DNA of 64,000 nucleotides from Celeribacter neptunius (GTDB taxonomy: Bacteria > Pseudomonadota > Alphaproteobacteria > Rhodobacterales > Rhodobacteraceae). The stretch covers positions 310,001 to 374,000 of the forward strand of contig NZ_FORH01000004.1 in NCBI RefSeq assembly GCF_900113955.1, given 5' to 3'. Shown one piece after another: positions 25,736-45,694 of this stretch (within the stretch, counting starts at the first letter, position 1; each line of letters begins with the position of its first letter). The position numbers were made by a program, and so were the translations under genes. The notes beneath the pieces were generated by a model. It worked only from the letters and a program-made list of their open reading frames with translations, was not told the origin of the DNA and did no database searches.

Positions 25736-26584
25736 ATGAGCGGCAAAGGCAACGCTCCGATTATCATCAAGAAGAAGAAAGTCATTCAGGGTGGCGGCCA
25801 TCACGGCGGTGCCTGGAAGGTGGCTTATGCCGACTTCGTGACCGCGATGATGGCGTTCTTTCTCTTGATGTGGTTGTTGAACGCGACGACGGAAAAACAG
25901 CGCAAGGGTCTGGCGGATTATTTCAATCCGACCATTCCGGTGAACCGTATTTCCGGTGGCGGAGACGGTGCCTTCGGTGGCGATTCCGTCTTTACCGAGG
26001 AAACCCTGTCGCAAAACGGCACGGGGGCGTCGAGCGAACATACCGCAAGCGACAGCGGCTCTGCCAAATCCGACAGTTCCACGGATGAGGATACGGCAAA
26101 GGCGCTCGAGGCCAAGGCCTTCTCCGAAGTTCAGGAACTCCTCACGGCGTTCAGCGGCGAAAGCATGGCGGCGGACAAGGCGATGCGCCATATCGTGACC
26201 CGGGTCACCGACGAAGGTCTGATCATCGAGCTTTACGATGTCGGGGATGAATCCCTGTTCTCATCGCGTTCGGACGAGCCGAATGAGGTTCTGGACCTGC
26301 TGGTGCAGATGCTCGCCGAAGTCATCAAGATCGTCCGCAACGATATTGCCGTGAATGGCTATGTCCGGTCACAGCCCCTGGTCGTCGCGGACAATCCGGT
26401 CTGGGACCTGTCGACGAAACGGGCGGACCGGGTGCGGTTGCTCCTGGAAACCAACGGGACGCCGGCCAAGCGCATTCAACGGGTGACGGGGTACGCGGAT
26501 CGCAAGCCTGCCATCGGCAATCCGATGTCCACGCGGAACAACCGCGTCGAGGTGATCCTGTTGCGCAACCAGATCAAGAAATAG
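25736..26584 (+). CDS. motB: Flagellar motor protein MotB
   Basis: 282 residues. Stator subunit that anchors the MotA/MotB proton channel to peptidoglycan. A basic N-terminus is followed by one membrane helix with YADFVTAMMAFFLLMWLL, in which D33 is the proton-carrying aspartate. A Gly/Ser-rich plug/linker (about 65-125) follows, then the OmpA-like domain (VNGYVRSQPLVV; STKRADRVRLLL; terminal NNRVEVILLRN). motA is not adjacent but lies 11 kb away at 37114. flgE follows after a 92-base gap. Confidence 0.96.
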   Translation: MSGKGNAPIIIKKKKVIQGGGHHGGAWKVAYADFVTAMMAFFLLMWLLNATTEKQRKGLADYFNPTIPVNRISGGGDGAFGGDSVFTEETLSQNGTGASSEHTASDSGSAKSDSSTDEDTAKALEAKAFSEVQELLTAFSGESMAADKAMRHIVTRVTDEGLIIELYDVGDESLFSSRSDEPNEVLDLLVQMLAEVIKIVRNDIAVNGYVRSQPLVVADNPVWDLSTKRADRVRLLLETNGTPAKRIQRVTGYADRKPAIGNPMSTRNNRVEVILLRNQIKK

Positions 26585-35388: not shown

Positions 35389-35403
35389 TTAACAATCGGT
35401 TAG
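35389..35403. promoter_or_regulatory. CtrA-like site between fliF and fliL
   Basis: TTAA-N7-TTAG in the 126-base divergent space, 50 bases before the fliL start and 63 bases before the fliF start. It could serve both operons. Confidence 0.5.
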
Positions 35404-35452: not shown

Positions 35453-35953
35453 ATGGCTGAAGAAGAACAGCTGGAAGAAGAACCAAAGAAGAAGTCGAAA
35501 TTGCCCCTGATCCTCGGGGTGGTCTTGATGTTGGTTTTGGGCGGCGGCGGATTTTTCGCTGTCTACTCGGGCATGTTGTTTGCCCCAGCAGAAGTACATG
35601 AGGAGACGGATCTGGCCACCATGGCCGAGGAACCTGTGGCGCCGCTGCCCAGTGTGGCTTTCGTCTCCGTGGAACCTTTGATCGTCAATCTCATTGATAC
35701 GACCGGGCGCGGGCGCCACCTGAGGTTTCAGGCCCAGCTCGAGGTTCCGATGCAATATGAACAGGAAGTCATCACACTTCTGCCACGTGTGGTCGATGTT
35801 CTGAACGGGTACCTGCGTGCGGTCGATGTGGCCGAGCTGGAAAATCCCTCCGCTCTGGTGCGTTTGCGCGCACAGATATTGAGACGTCTTCAAATTGTGG
35901 CCGGTGAAGGCCGGGTGAAAGACGTGCTCATCATGGAATTCGTGATCAATTGA
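35453..35953 (+). CDS. fliL: Flagellar basal body-associated protein FliL
   Basis: 166 residues. A short charged cytoplasmic tail (EEEQLEEEPKKKSK) is followed by one membrane helix (LPLILGVVLMLVLGGGGFFAVY, about 19-40) and the periplasmic FliL domain (VSVEPLIVNLIDTTGRGRHL; PRVVDVLNGYLRAVDVAEL; VKDVLIMEFVIN). FliL encircles and supports the stator. First gene of fliL-(coiled-coil protein)-motE-like-motA-(repeat protein). A second FliL-domain gene lies at 45158. Confidence 0.94.
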   Translation: MAEEEQLEEEPKKKSKLPLILGVVLMLVLGGGGFFAVYSGMLFAPAEVHEETDLATMAEEPVAPLPSVAFVSVEPLIVNLIDTTGRGRHLRFQAQLEVPMQYEQEVITLLPRVVDVLNGYLRAVDVAELENPSALVRLRAQILRRLQIVAGEGRVKDVLIMEFVIN

Positions 35954-35963
35954 GGAGACGGAC

Positions 35964-36395
35964 ATGGAAATGATTGCAGATATCCTCATGATTGCCGGGA
36001 CGATTTCGGTGGCCATCTATTGTGTGGTTCTGGCCCGGCGGTTGAGCCGTTTCACCGATCTTGAAAAGGGCGTCGGCGGTGCGATCGCGGTCCTGTCGGT
36101 CCAGGTGGATGATATGACCAAGACCCTGACCCAGGCTCAGAAAACCGCGGGCGGTTCGGCCGTGAAGCTGGAAGAGCTCACCCAGCGTGCCGAAGACGTG
36201 TCGCGGCGTTTGGAGTTGTTGATCGCATCGATGCACGATCTGCCGGAAGCGTCTGCACCGAAAGCGCCCTCTGCCTCCGCGCAAGCGGCGGCCCAGGCGA
36301 CAGCGGACCGCGCCGCCGAAGAGGCGCTCGACCGTGCCTTTGAAGCTGAGACCGTGTTTCTGAGCAAAAGAAACCGTGTGGAGGCCGCAGAATGA
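35964..36395 (+). CDS. Small membrane protein with coiled coil, flagellar operon
   Basis: 143 residues, not recognised. One N-terminal membrane helix (about 3-23, MIADILMIAGTISVAIYCVVL) is followed by a positively charged turn, then a helical region rich in Glu, Gln, Lys and Leu (VDDMTKTLTQAQ, KLEELTQRAEDVSRRLELL) that should form a coiled coil. The tail is Ala/Glu-rich. It lies 10 bases after fliL and overlaps the motE-like gene by four bases, so it is translated with motility proteins. A stator- or MotE-associated role is inference. Confidence 0.7.
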   Translation: MEMIADILMIAGTISVAIYCVVLARRLSRFTDLEKGVGGAIAVLSVQVDDMTKTLTQAQKTAGGSAVKLEELTQRAEDVSRRLELLIASMHDLPEASAPKAPSASAQAAAQATADRAAEEALDRAFEAETVFLSKRNRVEAAE

Positions 36396-37036
36396 CCAAA
36401 GCCGCTGCCCAATCCAAAGAGGCGAAAGCCAAATCGAAACCGAAAGTGAAGCGGAAGCTGCGGTCCGGGCGTGGCGCGCTCTGGATCATCGCGCTTGTAC
36501 TGGGTTCCTCGGCGGTCATTCGCCTGGCCTCGGGGACCGGCGCGGCAATTGCGCGTGAAATGTCGGAATTGTCGCATGGGGATATGCCCCAGGAACAGGT
36601 GGCAACCGCGGCCTTGTGCAAAACCGATGAGGAAACCGCGGCCCTGCTCGAGTCGCTGATGAGGCGCGAGCGCGATGTCGAGGACAAAGAGCTTCTGATC
36701 GCGCAAAAGATGAAAGCGATCGAAGTGGCGCGTGCCGAGGTGCTCTCGAACATGAACGCGCTGAAAGAGGCCGAAGCGAAGCTCGAATCGACGATGGCGC
36801 GGTCGCAAAATGCTGCCGAAGACGATCTGGCCAAGCTGACCTCGGTCTACGAATCGATGAAGCCGAAAGACGCGGCAGCCCTGTTCGAGGCGATGTCGCC
36901 GGATTTCGCCGCCGGCTTCCTCGGCCGGATGCGTTCGGATGCGGCAGGGGCGATCATGGCAGGTCTGAAGCCTGAAACAGCCTATACCATTTCCGTCATT
37001 CTGGCTGGCAGAAATGCCAAGGCCCCGACCGAATAA
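36392..37036 (+). CDS. motE: MotE-like motility protein (MgtE-N-like domain)
   Basis: 214 residues. A very basic N-terminus is followed by one membrane helix (about 30-46, ALWIIALVLGSSAVIRLA) and a long helical region (about 80-135) fit for a coiled coil. The C-terminal domain (LTSVYESMKPKDAAALFEAM and DFAAGFLGRMRSDAAGAIM) matches the MgtE N-terminal repeat found in MotE. In Sinorhizobium, MotE is a periplasmic chaperone for MotC. Start overlaps the preceding gene by four bases, and motA follows. Confidence 0.83.
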   Translation: MTKAAAQSKEAKAKSKPKVKRKLRSGRGALWIIALVLGSSAVIRLASGTGAAIAREMSELSHGDMPQEQVATAALCKTDEETAALLESLMRRERDVEDKELLIAQKMKAIEVARAEVLSNMNALKEAEAKLESTMARSQNAAEDDLAKLTSVYESMKPKDAAALFEAMSPDFAAGFLGRMRSDAAGAIMAGLKPETAYTISVILAGRNAKAPTE

Positions 37037-37043
37037 TGGTTAA
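37036..37043 (-). promoter_or_regulatory. CtrA-type half-site upstream of motA
   Basis: ATGGTTAA, the reverse complement of the TTAACCAT CtrA half-site, with another TTAA at 37058-37061. Located 70 bases before the motA start in a 77-base space. It suggests that motA can also be transcribed separately from fliL. Confidence 0.35.
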
Positions 37044-37113
37044 TGTGGCAAACTTTCTTAAGATTTTCATGGCAGGTTGACGCTGTTTGCAGCCAGATAT
37101 TGAGGACTAAAAC

Positions 37114-37983
37114 ATGATCGGTATCGTCGGTATTCTACTGATCTTCATCATGGTGTTTGGCGGCTATATCGCGGCCGGCGGGAAGCTCGGAATCATCCTT
37201 AAGTCCCTGCCTTTCGAATTCATGATGATCGGCGGCGCGGCGGCCGGGGCTTTCGTGATTTCCAACGATATGTCCGGCATCAAGCATACGCTCAAGGACA
37301 TCGGCAAAGTCTTCAAAGGGCCGAAATGGAAGCCGGAGGATTACAAGGATCTTCTGTGCCTTCTGTTCGAGCTCATCCGGCTGGCGCGTCAGAACCCCGT
37401 CGGTCTCGAAGAGCATATCGAGGCGCCGGAAAATTCGTCGATCTTCACCAAATATCCGAAGATTCTCAGCGACAAGGAAGCGGTTGCGCTGATCTGTGAC
37501 ACGCTGCGTTCCGCCTCGATGAACTATGACGATCCGCATCAGGTCGAGGAAGTGCTCGAAAAGCGGCTCGAGGCCAACCTGCATCATGCGCTGCATAGCT
37601 CGCATGCGATGGCGGCGATTGGCGACGGTCTGCCGGCACTCGGTATCGTGGCCGCCGTGTTGGGCGTGATCAAGACCATGGCCTCGATCGACCAGCCACC
37701 CGAGATCCTTGGTAAAATGATCGGTGGTGCCCTTGTCGGGACCTTCCTCGGGGTGTTCCTCGCCTATGGCATCGTTGGTCCTTTCGCCGGCAAGATGCAG
37801 ACGGTGATCGAAGAAGACGGGCATTTCTACCAGCTGATCCGTGAGGTGCTGATCGCCAATCTGCACAATCATGCGACGAATATCTGTATCGAAGTGGGTC
37901 GCCAGAACACGCCGGGCCATTGCCGTCCGAGCTTCTCCGAACTCGAAGACGCTCTGAAAGAGGTCAAGTCGGAGGCAGCATGA
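37114..37983 (+). CDS. motA: Flagellar motor stator protein MotA
   Basis: 289 residues. Four membrane segments: IVGILLIFIMVFGGYIAAGG, PFEFMMIGGAAAGAFVI, GDGLPALGIVAAVLGVIKTM and IGGALVGTFLGVFLAYGIVG. The conserved cytoplasmic loop carries LIRLARQNPVGLEEHIEAPE with the charged residues that touch FliG. The stator drives rotation with MotB, encoded 11 kb away. The stop overlaps the start of the next gene (ATGA), so the secreted repeat protein is translationally coupled to MotA. Confidence 0.97.
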   Translation: MIGIVGILLIFIMVFGGYIAAGGKLGIILKSLPFEFMMIGGAAAGAFVISNDMSGIKHTLKDIGKVFKGPKWKPEDYKDLLCLLFELIRLARQNPVGLEEHIEAPENSSIFTKYPKILSDKEAVALICDTLRSASMNYDDPHQVEEVLEKRLEANLHHALHSSHAMAAIGDGLPALGIVAAVLGVIKTMASIDQPPEILGKMIGGALVGTFLGVFLAYGIVGPFAGKMQTVIEEDGHFYQLIREVLIANLHNHATNICIEVGRQNTPGHCRPSFSELEDALKEVKSEAA

Positions 37984-40460
37984 TCAGGCTCTTAACTCTT
38001 CTTCTCGCCCTCAGTCTGACGCCCTTTGCGTCAGCGCGCGCGGAAGTGGTCGACGTTCTCTCCGGAGAACATGTCGACTTTTCGCGTTTGGTGATGCAAT
38101 TCCCGACGGCAGTCGACTGGCAATTCGGTCGCACCGCTGATGGCAGCTATGCGTTGCGTGTGGACGCGCCCGACGTGAGTTTCAACACCACCGGGGTGTT
38201 CAACAAAATCCCGCGCAGCCGGGTCGAAACCCTGTCCTCGGGCGCTTCGGAACTGATCGTGACGGTTCCGGGAAATGTCCATGCCGACGCGTTCGAACTG
38301 CGTGCGGGCCGGATCGTCATTGATATCAAGGATGGGCAACCGCAGGCGAATGCGGCCTTTGAAAAGATCCTGGATGCGACGGCGCGGAATGCTCCGACGC
38401 CCGTGATGAGGACGCCGCTGGCCAGGCCGGTCGACCCGGAGGCCGGGCAGGAGACTGTCGTTGCCGACATGGCGCCACAGACGGTCACGGCACCCGATCC
38501 GGTGACGGAAGAGGTCATGCCGAGTGCAACCACCGAGGACCCTGGCAGCGACGTGCTGATGTCCGGCGCAGGACAAGAGCATGTTGGTACAGTGGTGCGC
38601 GAGGGGCTGGACCCGCTCGACCGGGTCGAGTTCCCGATCATTATGCCCGGGAGCATGCCGAATGGCGGTGCGGAGACGGCTCCGATTTCGGTTGGCAATG
38701 CCGCGCTGGACGAGGAATTGGTACAGCGGTCCGAACATGTCGAGGAGTTGCAGAAACAGCTTCTCGAACAAATCGGTCGTGCCGTGTCTCAGGGTCTTCT
38801 GGATGCGGATATCACCAAGACGGAGCAGGCCGTTGAAGAGACACAGGCCTATCAGTCTGAACAGGAGGCAGGTGCAGCAGCCGCGGCGCAGCAAGCGGCG
38901 GTGGAAGAGCCGCTCTCCGCAGAGGACCGAAGCCATATTCGCATCCAATCCTCGATCGATCGGGAACAGAAGAATCGCGATGAAGAGAGCCGGGTCGATG
39001 ATCGCGGCACCCAATGCCTGAGCAGCGGGATGATCGATGTTGCCGCTTGGGGCGGGGCTCTGGAAGACGGTTTGGAGTTGCCCGCCCTGCGCGCGGCGAC
39101 GATCGGTGAGTTCGACCTGCCGAACCCGGACGGGGTCAAGCAACTTGCCCGTTACTACATCTACCTGACCTTCGGGGCCGAAGCGAAATCCGTTCTGAAG
39201 GATTTCGGCGTGACGGTCGAAGGTCATGACATTCTTTGGACACTCGCCGACATCATGGACAAGGGCTATGCCGAGAAGCCGGGTCGCCTGGCCAATCAGT
39301 TCCGCTGTGATGGCGCCGTGGCCTTCTGGTCGGTGATGGCCAAGGAAAAGCTGAACGACTGGGAAGAGTATAATATGGACAGTGTCCTGGGGACCTTCTC
39401 CGCCCTTCCCATTCATCTGCGCCGGTTCCTCGGCCCGAAACTGTCGGAGCGTTTTCTGGCGATCGGTGACGAAGACAGCGCCAAGAATATCCAAAGTGCC
39501 ATCGCCCGGGTCGAAGGTGACCACGGGGATGCATTCGCCCTTCTGGATGCGGAGCTCAAACTCGCGGACGGTGATGTGCCGAGCGGGGTGGGCCAGCTCG
39601 AGCTCATCGTCGGGGAAAACGGCCCCAAAGCGCCTGAAGCGCTGGTCAAACTGATCGCGACCCAGGCGGCGGAAGGCGGTCCCATCGATCGCAGGACGGC
39701 CGAGAATGCCGAAGCCATGTCGGTCGAATTCCGTGGCAGCGATTATGAGGCGACATTGCGCAAGGCCGCCATCGTCGCCCGGATCTATTCCGGCGATGTG
39801 GATATGGCACTGCGTCAGGTTCTGTCGCTGCGCGCCGATGAGATCGGGGATGCCGGCGATGTTTCTGCGCTTCTGTCGCAATCTCTGGAAGTGCTGGCCG
39901 GCGATGCGGATGATCCGACCTTTTCGAAACTGGCGCTGGGGCATCTCGATGAGATTTCCCATGCCGCGATCACCGATGACGCGCGTCTGAAGGTTGCGGA
40001 ACGGCTTGTCGACATGGGATTCTTTGATGCCGCCCTGTCGCTCATGTCCAGATATTCCGATCAGGATGACGCGGCTGCCAAGATGACCCTGGCGCGTGCC
40101 TTCTACGGCGAAGGGGAAATGGAGGCGGCCATCCGTTACGCCGGTCAGGTCACATCTGATGATGCGAAACGGCTGATGTCGAAGGCCTATTTCCAGCTCG
40201 ACGATCCGAAAAAGGCGGTGGAGGCGCTCGACGGGCTTTCCGCCGATGCGCAAAGCGATGCCCTGTCTCTGGTTGCCGAGGACTGGGGCCGCCTGGAACG
40301 CTCCACCGAGCCGAGCCTCGCCGGTCTGGCCGATGTGGTGACCAAGGACACAGCGGCGCCGCAGACCGATGAGAATGGCGTTCCGAGCCTGTCGAGCGTC
40401 GAAGATCTCCTGTCGAACAGCCGCGAGATGCGCGATGCGCTGGAAGCGGTGCTTAACTAA
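37980..40460 (+). CDS. Large exported repeat-rich protein coupled to motA (possible MotC counterpart)
   Basis: 826 residues. N-terminal signal peptide (LLTLLLALSLTPFASARA). The first 130 residues contain a beta-rich region (VDWQFGRTADGSYALRVDAP, VHADAFELRAGRIVIDIKDG) that resembles an AMIN-like domain. A long acidic linker follows (about 140-370). The C-terminal half (about 390-800) is all-helical and looks like TPR-type repeats (AEAKSVLKDFGV, EGEMEAAIRYAGQVTSDDAK, DDPKKAVEALDGL). Coupling to motA and a nearby MotE-like gene suggest a periplasmic motility protein like MotC. Unrecognised; function is inference. Confidence 0.75.
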   Translation: MIRLLTLLLALSLTPFASARAEVVDVLSGEHVDFSRLVMQFPTAVDWQFGRTADGSYALRVDAPDVSFNTTGVFNKIPRSRVETLSSGASELIVTVPGNVHADAFELRAGRIVIDIKDGQPQANAAFEKILDATARNAPTPVMRTPLARPVDPEAGQETVVADMAPQTVTAPDPVTEEVMPSATTEDPGSDVLMSGAGQEHVGTVVREGLDPLDRVEFPIIMPGSMPNGGAETAPISVGNAALDEELVQRSEHVEELQKQLLEQIGRAVSQGLLDADITKTEQAVEETQAYQSEQEAGAAAAAQQAAVEEPLSAEDRSHIRIQSSIDREQKNRDEESRVDDRGTQCLSSGMIDVAAWGGALEDGLELPALRAATIGEFDLPNPDGVKQLARYYIYLTFGAEAKSVLKDFGVTVEGHDILWTLADIMDKGYAEKPGRLANQFRCDGAVAFWSVMAKEKLNDWEEYNMDSVLGTFSALPIHLRRFLGPKLSERFLAIGDEDSAKNIQSAIARVEGDHGDAFALLDAELKLADGDVPSGVGQLELIVGENGPKAPEALVKLIATQAAEGGPIDRRTAENAEAMSVEFRGSDYEATLRKAAIVARIYSGDVDMALRQVLSLRADEIGDAGDVSALLSQSLEVLAGDADDPTFSKLALGHLDEISHAAITDDARLKVAERLVDMGFFDAALSLMSRYSDQDDAAAKMTLARAFYGEGEMEAAIRYAGQVTSDDAKRLMSKAYFQLDDPKKAVEALDGLSADAQSDALSLVAEDWGRLERSTEPSLAGLADVVTKDTAAPQTDENGVPSLSSVEDLLSNSREMRDALEAVLN

Positions 40461-40503
40461 ATTTACGTTTCCTCAAGGACCTGTATACACTTTGTAAACC
40501 ACG

Positions 40504-40546
40504 CCCGTCGTATTCTGGACTCCATAGGAGCAAGAATTGCGACGGG
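40504..40546. promoter_or_regulatory. Long imperfect hairpin before flhA
   Basis: Nested inverted repeats: CCCGTCG / CGACGGG (40504-40510, 40540-40546), then ATTCT / AGAAT, then CTCC / GGAG around ATA. No T-run follows. It could be an RNA fold, processing site or regulator site. Role unknown. Confidence 0.45.
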
Positions 40547-40578
40547 TGATGGAAATGCGAAGTGATTCCATGATGTTG

Positions 40579-40621
40579 ATCCGCTGTCTCATCCCATTGG
40601 GATTGGAGCGCGGATTTTTTT
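40579..40621 (+). terminator. Terminator-like structure before flhA
   Basis: Outer stem ATCCGC / GCGGAT (40579-40584, 40610-40615) enclosing ATCCC / GGGAT, followed directly by a run of six T. It would separate the fliL-motA unit from the flhA unit. Confidence 0.6.
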
Positions 40622-40709
40622 CGGATCGGTCGGAAGGCTGTGATCCGTCCCGCCGCGAAAGCGTCATCGCCCCTATGACCGGGGTGCATCATGACCAGGT
40701 GCAGCTGCG

Positions 40710-45157: not shown

Positions 45158-45694
45158 TTAACCGATGTCCTGCCGCACGATATCGATCACCAGCACATCG
45201 TTGATCTCCGGGCCGAGGATCTTCTGCGCCACTTCCAGAAGGGCCTGACGCAGCGAGTTCATCGTGCTGCTGTCGGTAAAGGCGCCTTTGAAACCACCGG
45301 TGTTGGCGTGATCGAACAGAACCTGCAGGAAGGCGTCGCGCAGCTTCGGTTCCCGGGCATAGATGTTCTCACGGCTGCCGGTCTTGGCCTCGAGACTCAG
45401 GGAGAGCACGATCATCGAGATCACCCGACCGCCTTCCAGATCGGGGATCACGAACTGGTTGTTGAGTTTGACATATTCATAGGCCGAGGCGGCGGGGGCG
45501 CCCTCGCCATGTCCGTCCTCGCCATGCGCATCGGCCGTGGCGATCACATGGGCATCGCCGGTCTCCGCCGTGCCGGTGTCGCCGCAGGGATCGATGGAGA
45601 CGACTTCTGGGGCGGGGCGTAGCATCAGCCCGCCGCCGACGCCGGCGCCGAGACCGACAACGGCCAGCAGGATCGGGAGAAGTTTCTTGATCAC
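45158..45694 (-). CDS. Second FliL-domain protein
   Basis: 178 residues. One N-terminal membrane helix (KLLPILLAVVGLGAGVGGGLML) is followed by a His/Gly/Asp-rich linker (about 38-70) and a FliL-type domain (YVKLNNQFVIPDLEGGRVISMIVLSLSLE; REPKLRDAFLQVLFDHANTG; INDVLVIDIVRQDIG) (key segments: YVKLNNQFVIPDL, REPKLRDAFLQVLF, DVLVIDIVRQ). It ends the flgB-to-flgH operon, 12 bases after flgH. It differs clearly from fliL at 35453, so the two are not a recent duplication. Confidence 0.85.
   Translation of the reverse strand: MIKKLLPILLAVVGLGAGVGGGLMLRPAPEVVSIDPCGDTGTAETGDAHVIATADAHGEDGHGEGAPAASAYEYVKLNNQFVIPDLEGGRVISMIVLSLSLEAKTGSRENIYAREPKLRDAFLQVLFDHANTGGFKGAFTDSSTMNSLRQALLEVAQKILGPEINDVLVIDIVRQDIG

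Follow-up and report, generated by a model that had tools for sequence, protein, structure and literature searches.

A conserved fliL-pflI-motE-motA-motK block and its predicted periplasmic stator scaffold in Celeribacter neptunius

We analyzed a 64,000-nucleotide stretch of the Celeribacter neptunius genome (hereafter the window; RefSeq assembly GCF_900113955.1, contig NZ_FORH01000004.1, positions 310,001 to 374,000) and found that it contains five flagellar genes in the order fliL-pflI-motE-motA-motK. This block is very probably the CtrA-type operon of the archetypal Rhodobacterales flagellum, in which MotE and MotK would form a periplasmic scaffold for the stator. The identity of the genes, their order, the domain anatomy of their products and their co-occurrence with one type of flagellum were established here. 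The system has largely been described already, and our additions are small, namely a genus that lacks MotK and the identification of the Phaeobacter proteins CP2-CP4.

Operon layout and upstream control site

The first gene of the operon, fliL (35453..35953), matched the Pfam FliL family at 1.3e-15 and ended 10 bp before pflI (35964..36395; 143 residues) in the same gene run, so that the block comprises five genes. The other members were motE (36392..37036; 214 residues), motA (37114..37983; 289 residues) and motK (37980..40460; 826 residues from the ATG at 37980), and all five were located on the + strand. ATGA overlaps joined pflI to motE (36392-36395) and motA to motK (37980-37983). The identity of motA, which encodes the stator ion-channel subunit, was certain, as TIGR03818 matched above its cut-off (2.1e-108). 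The original prediction had described a four-gene motility module in which the 826-residue gene was coupled to motA and the 143-residue gene was likewise coupled. All four open reading frames and both couplings were recovered and the assignment to motility stood, whereas the number of genes rose to five with the inclusion of fliL.

To describe the conservation of this layout across Rhodobacterales, a check that the original prediction had proposed, we compared the best 80 loci ranked by MotA similarity (the named loci); among the named matches listed, the closest MotA proteins were from Celeribacter (95-97%). The complete five-gene order was present in 76 of the 80 loci. In the remaining four, the contig stopped 125-1821 bp past motA and the leftover piece scored as MotK (1.5e-16 to 3.7e-182); one of these loci (L069) additionally lacked the upstream end. 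The start of MotK directly followed motA in 80/80 loci. When the start codon closest to the motA stop was used, the overlap with this stop amounted to 4 bases in 59 of the 76 complete loci and to a single base in 16 of them. The conservation of the five-gene order is far above chance.

CtrA recognizes the pattern TTAA-N7-TTAA, and a CtrA-like box that differed from it by one mismatch, TTAACAATCGGTTAG, was found upstream of fliL (35389..35403, + strand), where it presumably serves as the control site of the operon. The family version of the box, TTAANAATCGGTTAG, had its sole window match with at most one mismatch at these positions, compared with none in 100 shuffles. The gap between fliF and fliL could be obtained from 76 of the 80 named loci and was extended by 60 bp at either end; a 7-of-8 half-site match was present in 70 of these 76 gaps, in contrast to 3.0% of 1520 random segments. 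Among 1520 shuffled gaps, 5.5% had 7 or 8 matches. In Cereibacter sphaeroides, a CtrA site is described upstream of fliL2, and MotE and MotK are CtrA-dependent (PMC10954123); by analogy, CtrA would bind at 35389-35403 in the window.

MotK, MotE and PflI

The 826-residue exported protein (P0004) is MotK, which has already been published. Its residues 1-21, as read from the sequence, are hydrophobic, end in A-R-A and form an N-terminal signal peptide. Residues 22-119 (38043..38336, + strand) form an AMIN-like β-sandwich, a putative peptidoglycan binder, which matched AmiC in a fold comparison. Residues 340-826 (38997..40457, + strand) form a TPR-type α-superhelix that contains two invariant cysteines, C346 and C443. 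No PflA or FlcB chain appeared among the 50 fold matches listed for MotK, which excludes nothing, and a PDB sequence search returned no meaningful relatives of MotK, MotE or PflI. The protein had originally been proposed as a counterpart of Sinorhizobium MotC or as a new stator-stabilising scaffold; the functional counterpart and stator scaffold can be retained, whereas the protein is not new (PMC10954123).

The MotK alignment (A4) contained 59 rows, namely 58 of the 76 named MotKs and that of the window. It was built without L092 (TTG start, apparently frameshifted), L099 (GTG start) and 16 further sequences chosen by eye (L040, L047, L054, L067, L072, L075, L079, L084, L087, L089, L095, L096, L100, L103, L105 and L108). 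G29, H31, R36, C346, G399, E401 and C443 were invariant in all rows. Past residue 25, the named MotKs contained four cysteines in 67 of 76 cases and two in the other nine, and these always even counts suggest a disulfide between C346 and C443. We also observed that the A4 consensus has a CxC motif within the AMIN-like domain, which the MotK of the window lacks.

Vélez-González et al. (2024; PMC10954123) described a putative operon fliL2-pflI-motE-motA2-motK in C. sphaeroides. In their account, MotK has an AMIN-like N-terminus and a TPR-like remainder; both MotK and MotE reside in the periplasm, bind to one another as well as to MotB2 and are found at the flagellated pole, and the localisation of MotK requires MotA2/MotB2. 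Mutants in motE and motK had filaments and normal hook release, and their flagella were paralysed. Distant homologues of MotK were proposed in Dinoroseobacter shibae and in Caulobacter (CC_2058). Periplasmic location, binding and paralysis, shown by others in this relative, would apply to the window proteins by analogy.

The N-terminus of MotE contained a hydrophobic segment before approximately residue 54, followed by a charged helical stretch, as read from the sequence and its alignment. Its overall plan, an export signal, Cys76, a coiled coil and a C-terminal MgtE_N domain, is FlgY/FlbB-like. MgtE_N scored 27.0 bits in the window MotE against a Pfam cut-off of 25.9 and was found in all 28 MotE homologues of our set (E <= 0.01). 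The spirochaete FlbB model matched 24 of the 28, and the window MotE lay far below its cut-off (26 versus 110 bits). Cys76 is located approximately 22 residues into the presumed mature part, close to C20 of C. sphaeroides MotE; a dimer cysteine has been described for the MotE proteins of Sinorhizobium meliloti and C. sphaeroides. The original label of MotE-like chaperone is thus right as to MotE and dated as to chaperone: a 2026 review (PMC13023049) makes the case for MotE as a structural component of the E-ring, homologous to FlgY/FlbB, and in C. sphaeroides the stability of MotE is reported to depend on MotK and not the reverse (PMC10954123).

The 143-residue protein (P0001), a membrane coiled-coil protein that the original prediction had left unassigned, is PflI, as identified by its operon place between fliL and motE and by its single N-terminal membrane helix, which precedes a predicted coiled coil. 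By the positive-inside rule, this coiled coil should face the cytoplasm, so that PflI, a small membrane protein, would act beside the periplasmic scaffold and not within it. DUF6468 was detected in 20 of 24 PflI homologues (E <= 0.01), with P0001 itself below the cut-off. In C. sphaeroides, pflI is reported at the same operon place, and a homologue has been studied in Caulobacter (PMC10954123).

Distribution and genomic setting

We surveyed 196 Rhodobacterales genomes, of which 140 had a match to P0004 and 171 had FlhA. Of the 56 genomes that P0004 did not match, 31 have FlhA; the remaining 140 FlhA genomes therefore account for every P0004-positive genome. A MotK profile added four genomes (G013, G053, G084 and G110; FlhA 58-68% identical) and a 572-residue open reading frame beside motA in G082, where no FlhA was found. 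With two doubtful cases left out, MotK was matched in 144 of the 171 FlhA-bearing genomes versus 1 of the 25 that lack FlhA. In the first case, G160 (L139), interrupted motK remnants were present and FlhA, located elsewhere in the genome, was likewise fragmentary, so this is a decaying flagellar cluster; in the second, G101, the borderline profile hit (9.9e-4) is probably due to chance. The original prediction had named homologues mostly in non-flagellated genomes as evidence against it, and the distribution is the reverse. MotK co-occurs with one type of flagellum, that with fla1-type FlhA.

Two fla1-like genomes, G172 (FlhA 72%) and G140 (70% over part), had neither MotK nor a motA near flhA; G140 keeps MotE, and G172 lacks it. 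In the other 24 MotK-negative FlhA genomes, G101 included, FlhA was just 36-48% identical, and these genomes carry other or very divergent flagella. In G053 (L136) and G082 (L138), which belong to one genus, the fetched stretch contained motA-motK without fliL, pflI and motE, and motE was found on a different contig.

It is very improbable that these are co-transcribed proteins outside the motor that merely ride along in the operon. Their function in the window organism is predicted from the genes, which leaves room for such passengers, but the gene order is near-strict, MotK tracks fla1-type FlhA, and the genes are reported to be required for motility in two relatives (PMC12363192, PMC10954123).

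A further genus, g7, accounts for 10 of the 196 genomes (FlhA 46-48%). In all seven g7 regions read (L120-L123, L130, L131 and L135), fliL-pflI-motE-motA was followed by flhA without motK; the gap between motA and flhA was 253-283 bp in five of the six measured and 700 bp in the other. In the seventh region (L122), a transposase-like open reading frame was seen by eye in the gap. Profile searches detected MotE in 10/10 and MotK in 0/10 g7 genomes, and separate profiles for the N- and C-terminal parts of MotK, run against loci from seven g7 genomes, yielded nothing with E < 0.03. Around motB in three of these genomes (G006, G054 and G048), no MotC candidate was seen among open reading frames of at least 250 residues with high third-position GC content, an inspection without a MotC query that excludes little; flgE-, flgK-, flgL- and flgI-like starts were recognised by eye in two of the three. 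We then compared seven g7 MotE sequences with the 28 MotK-type MotE sequences at the 47 columns in which at least 90% of the latter agree. The commonest g7 letter differed in 25 of the 47 columns (one of them a trimming artefact) and in six of nine conserved columns of the C-terminal tail (approximately residues 197-212; consensus AYTISVILAGRNA..P). Tentatively, and with considerable doubt, MotK may be an optional spoke and the MotE ring the more ancient structure, with the MotE tail as a possible dock for MotK and g7 as a natural motor that has an E-ring and no spoke. As g7 has diverged overall and the tail does not clearly stand out, docking by the tail is only a lead. The genus offers a natural test of the purpose of the spoke.

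In Phaeobacter inhibens, Tomasch et al. (2025; PMC12363192) reported the order fliF, fliL, CP2, CP3, motA, CP4, sltF, flhA. They found CP2, CP3, motA and CP4 all to be required for motility and called CP2-CP4 uncharacterised and exclusive to fla1-type clusters. Since the order in Phaeobacter italicus (L086; FliF, FliL, PflI, MotE, MotA, MotK, FlhA) matches, we infer from gene order that CP2 is PflI, CP3 is MotE and CP4 is MotK. The words MotE, MotK and PflI are all absent from the main text of that paper, and, within the collection of papers searched, none joined Phaeobacter with MotE and flagellar. The paper places all its fla1-type clusters on chromosomes, whereas plasmid pD4M1D of Paroceanicella profunda (L156) carries PflI (by position), MotE, MotA and MotK in order, with the genes for MotE, MotK and the PflI place annotated as hypothetical. 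Marinovum algicola DG898, the fla2 reference strain of the same paper, also has a plasmid-borne MotE relative, annotated as FlbB. These two plasmid occurrences qualify the claims of the paper.

The window also contains motB (25736..26584, + strand; MotB_plug 4.1e-20, OmpA 2.5e-7), approximately 9 kb upstream, whose product is the predicted partner of MotE and MotK. The families around the block include, besides MotB, rod/hook (flgE-type), FlgK, flagellin-type (flgL-like), FlgI, FliP, a second FliL and FlgH. We take the flanking genes to be fliF and flhA, in agreement with the fliF annotated at the same place in the P. profunda plasmid record. The spacer between motK and flhA is 249 bp here (40461-40709); in the 72 named loci showing both genes, it was at most 300 bp in 27, 301-599 bp in 8 and at least 600 bp in 37. 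In P. inhibens this interval is occupied by sltF, a lytic transglycosylase (PMC12363192). The second FliL-family gene (45158-45694, - strand; PF03748, 1.5e-5) adjoins flgH, and the P. inhibens cluster is likewise described with two fliL genes (PMC12363192).

Proposed mechanism and comparison with known systems

In the arrangement that we infer, MotE is exported and its dimers would most likely form a ring (the E-ring) around the MS-ring. MotK is exported as well; its TPR superhelix would serve as a spoke, binding both MotE and the periplasmic portion of MotB, and its AMIN-like domain would anchor it to peptidoglycan. Together, MotE and MotK may recruit MotA/MotB stator units to the rotor or hold them open, and thus active, there.

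Several observations weigh against this reading. The window protein was equated with C. sphaeroides MotK by place and domain anatomy and not by sequence alignment, and the role in rotation and the binding to MotE and MotB have been shown only in C. sphaeroides. Of the 28 MotE homologues, 20 had the dimer cysteine and eight were without any cysteine in the presumed mature region, so a disulfide in MotE cannot be general. The block is not obligate, as it is split in two genomes and as the ten-genome genus g7 has MotE but no detectable MotK. The missing cysteines and the split block lowered our confidence. Finally, P. inhibens mutants in CP2 and CP3 are reported to release only FlgH, with flagella not detected, and the CP4 mutant to release fewer flagellar proteins (PMC12363192). 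By contrast, loss of motE in C. sphaeroides leaves cells that have flagella, but paralysed ones (PMC10954123). MotE may therefore also matter for assembly in roseobacters.

The same P. inhibens phenotypes, together with the AMIN-like domain of MotK, fit the alternative that MotK and MotE mainly work on the envelope or peptidoglycan while the flagellum is being assembled, to clear space for the rod and the P and L rings, with the loss of rotation as a secondary effect. We consider this unlikely, as the C. sphaeroides motE and motK mutants keep their filaments and normal hook release, and as MotK and MotE bind MotB2 and MotK needs MotA2/MotB2 for its localisation (PMC10954123). The periplasmic stator scaffold thus remains our preferred explanation, and it provides a ready hypothesis for roseobacter genes that are still annotated as hypothetical, as in the one named plasmid record that we read.

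Comparison with the MotK of C. sphaeroides fla2 revealed the same place after motA, signal peptide, AMIN-like N-terminus, TPR-like region and link to a flagellum (PMC10954123). The two proteins differ in length (826 residues in the window versus 652) and in the stretch between the domains, which is longer in the window (approximately 120-340 versus 120-260 in the published numbering). MotC of S. meliloti is similarly described as a periplasmic TPR-rich partner of MotE, and the review treats MotC and MotK as homologues that have diverged greatly (PMC13023049). That the 826-residue protein is the orthologue of MotC, with MotE as its dedicated chaperone, would agree with this homology and with the presence of MotE in the block. 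We nevertheless regard it as quite unlikely: MotC is encoded after motB (PMC10954123) and, by the account of the review, lacks an AMIN domain (PMC13023049), whereas in the window a rod/hook-type gene follows motB, the 826-residue gene follows motA and its product has an AMIN-like domain; the dependence of MotE on MotK in C. sphaeroides is also the reverse of that expected for a chaperone. The orthologue was rejected on position and on the AMIN-like domain, MotC being known here by description only.

With its export signal, coiled coil and C-terminal MgtE_N, the window MotE resembles the E-ring proteins MotE, FlgY and FlbB, from which a ring would be expected here as well. Published work assigns MotE, together with FlgY/FlbB, to the E-ring and regards MotK/MotC, like PflA/FlcB, as the TPR partner of the E-ring protein (PMC13023049, PMC11870540). 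By the descriptions in these papers, the spokes PflA/PflB of Campylobacterota and FlcA/FlcB of Borrelia likewise combine a β-sandwich with TPR repeats and have an E-ring protein as partner. The block joins three sets of genes that had been described separately, namely MotE/MotK of C. sphaeroides, CP2-CP4 of Phaeobacter and the E-ring and spoke proteins of Campylobacter and Borrelia.

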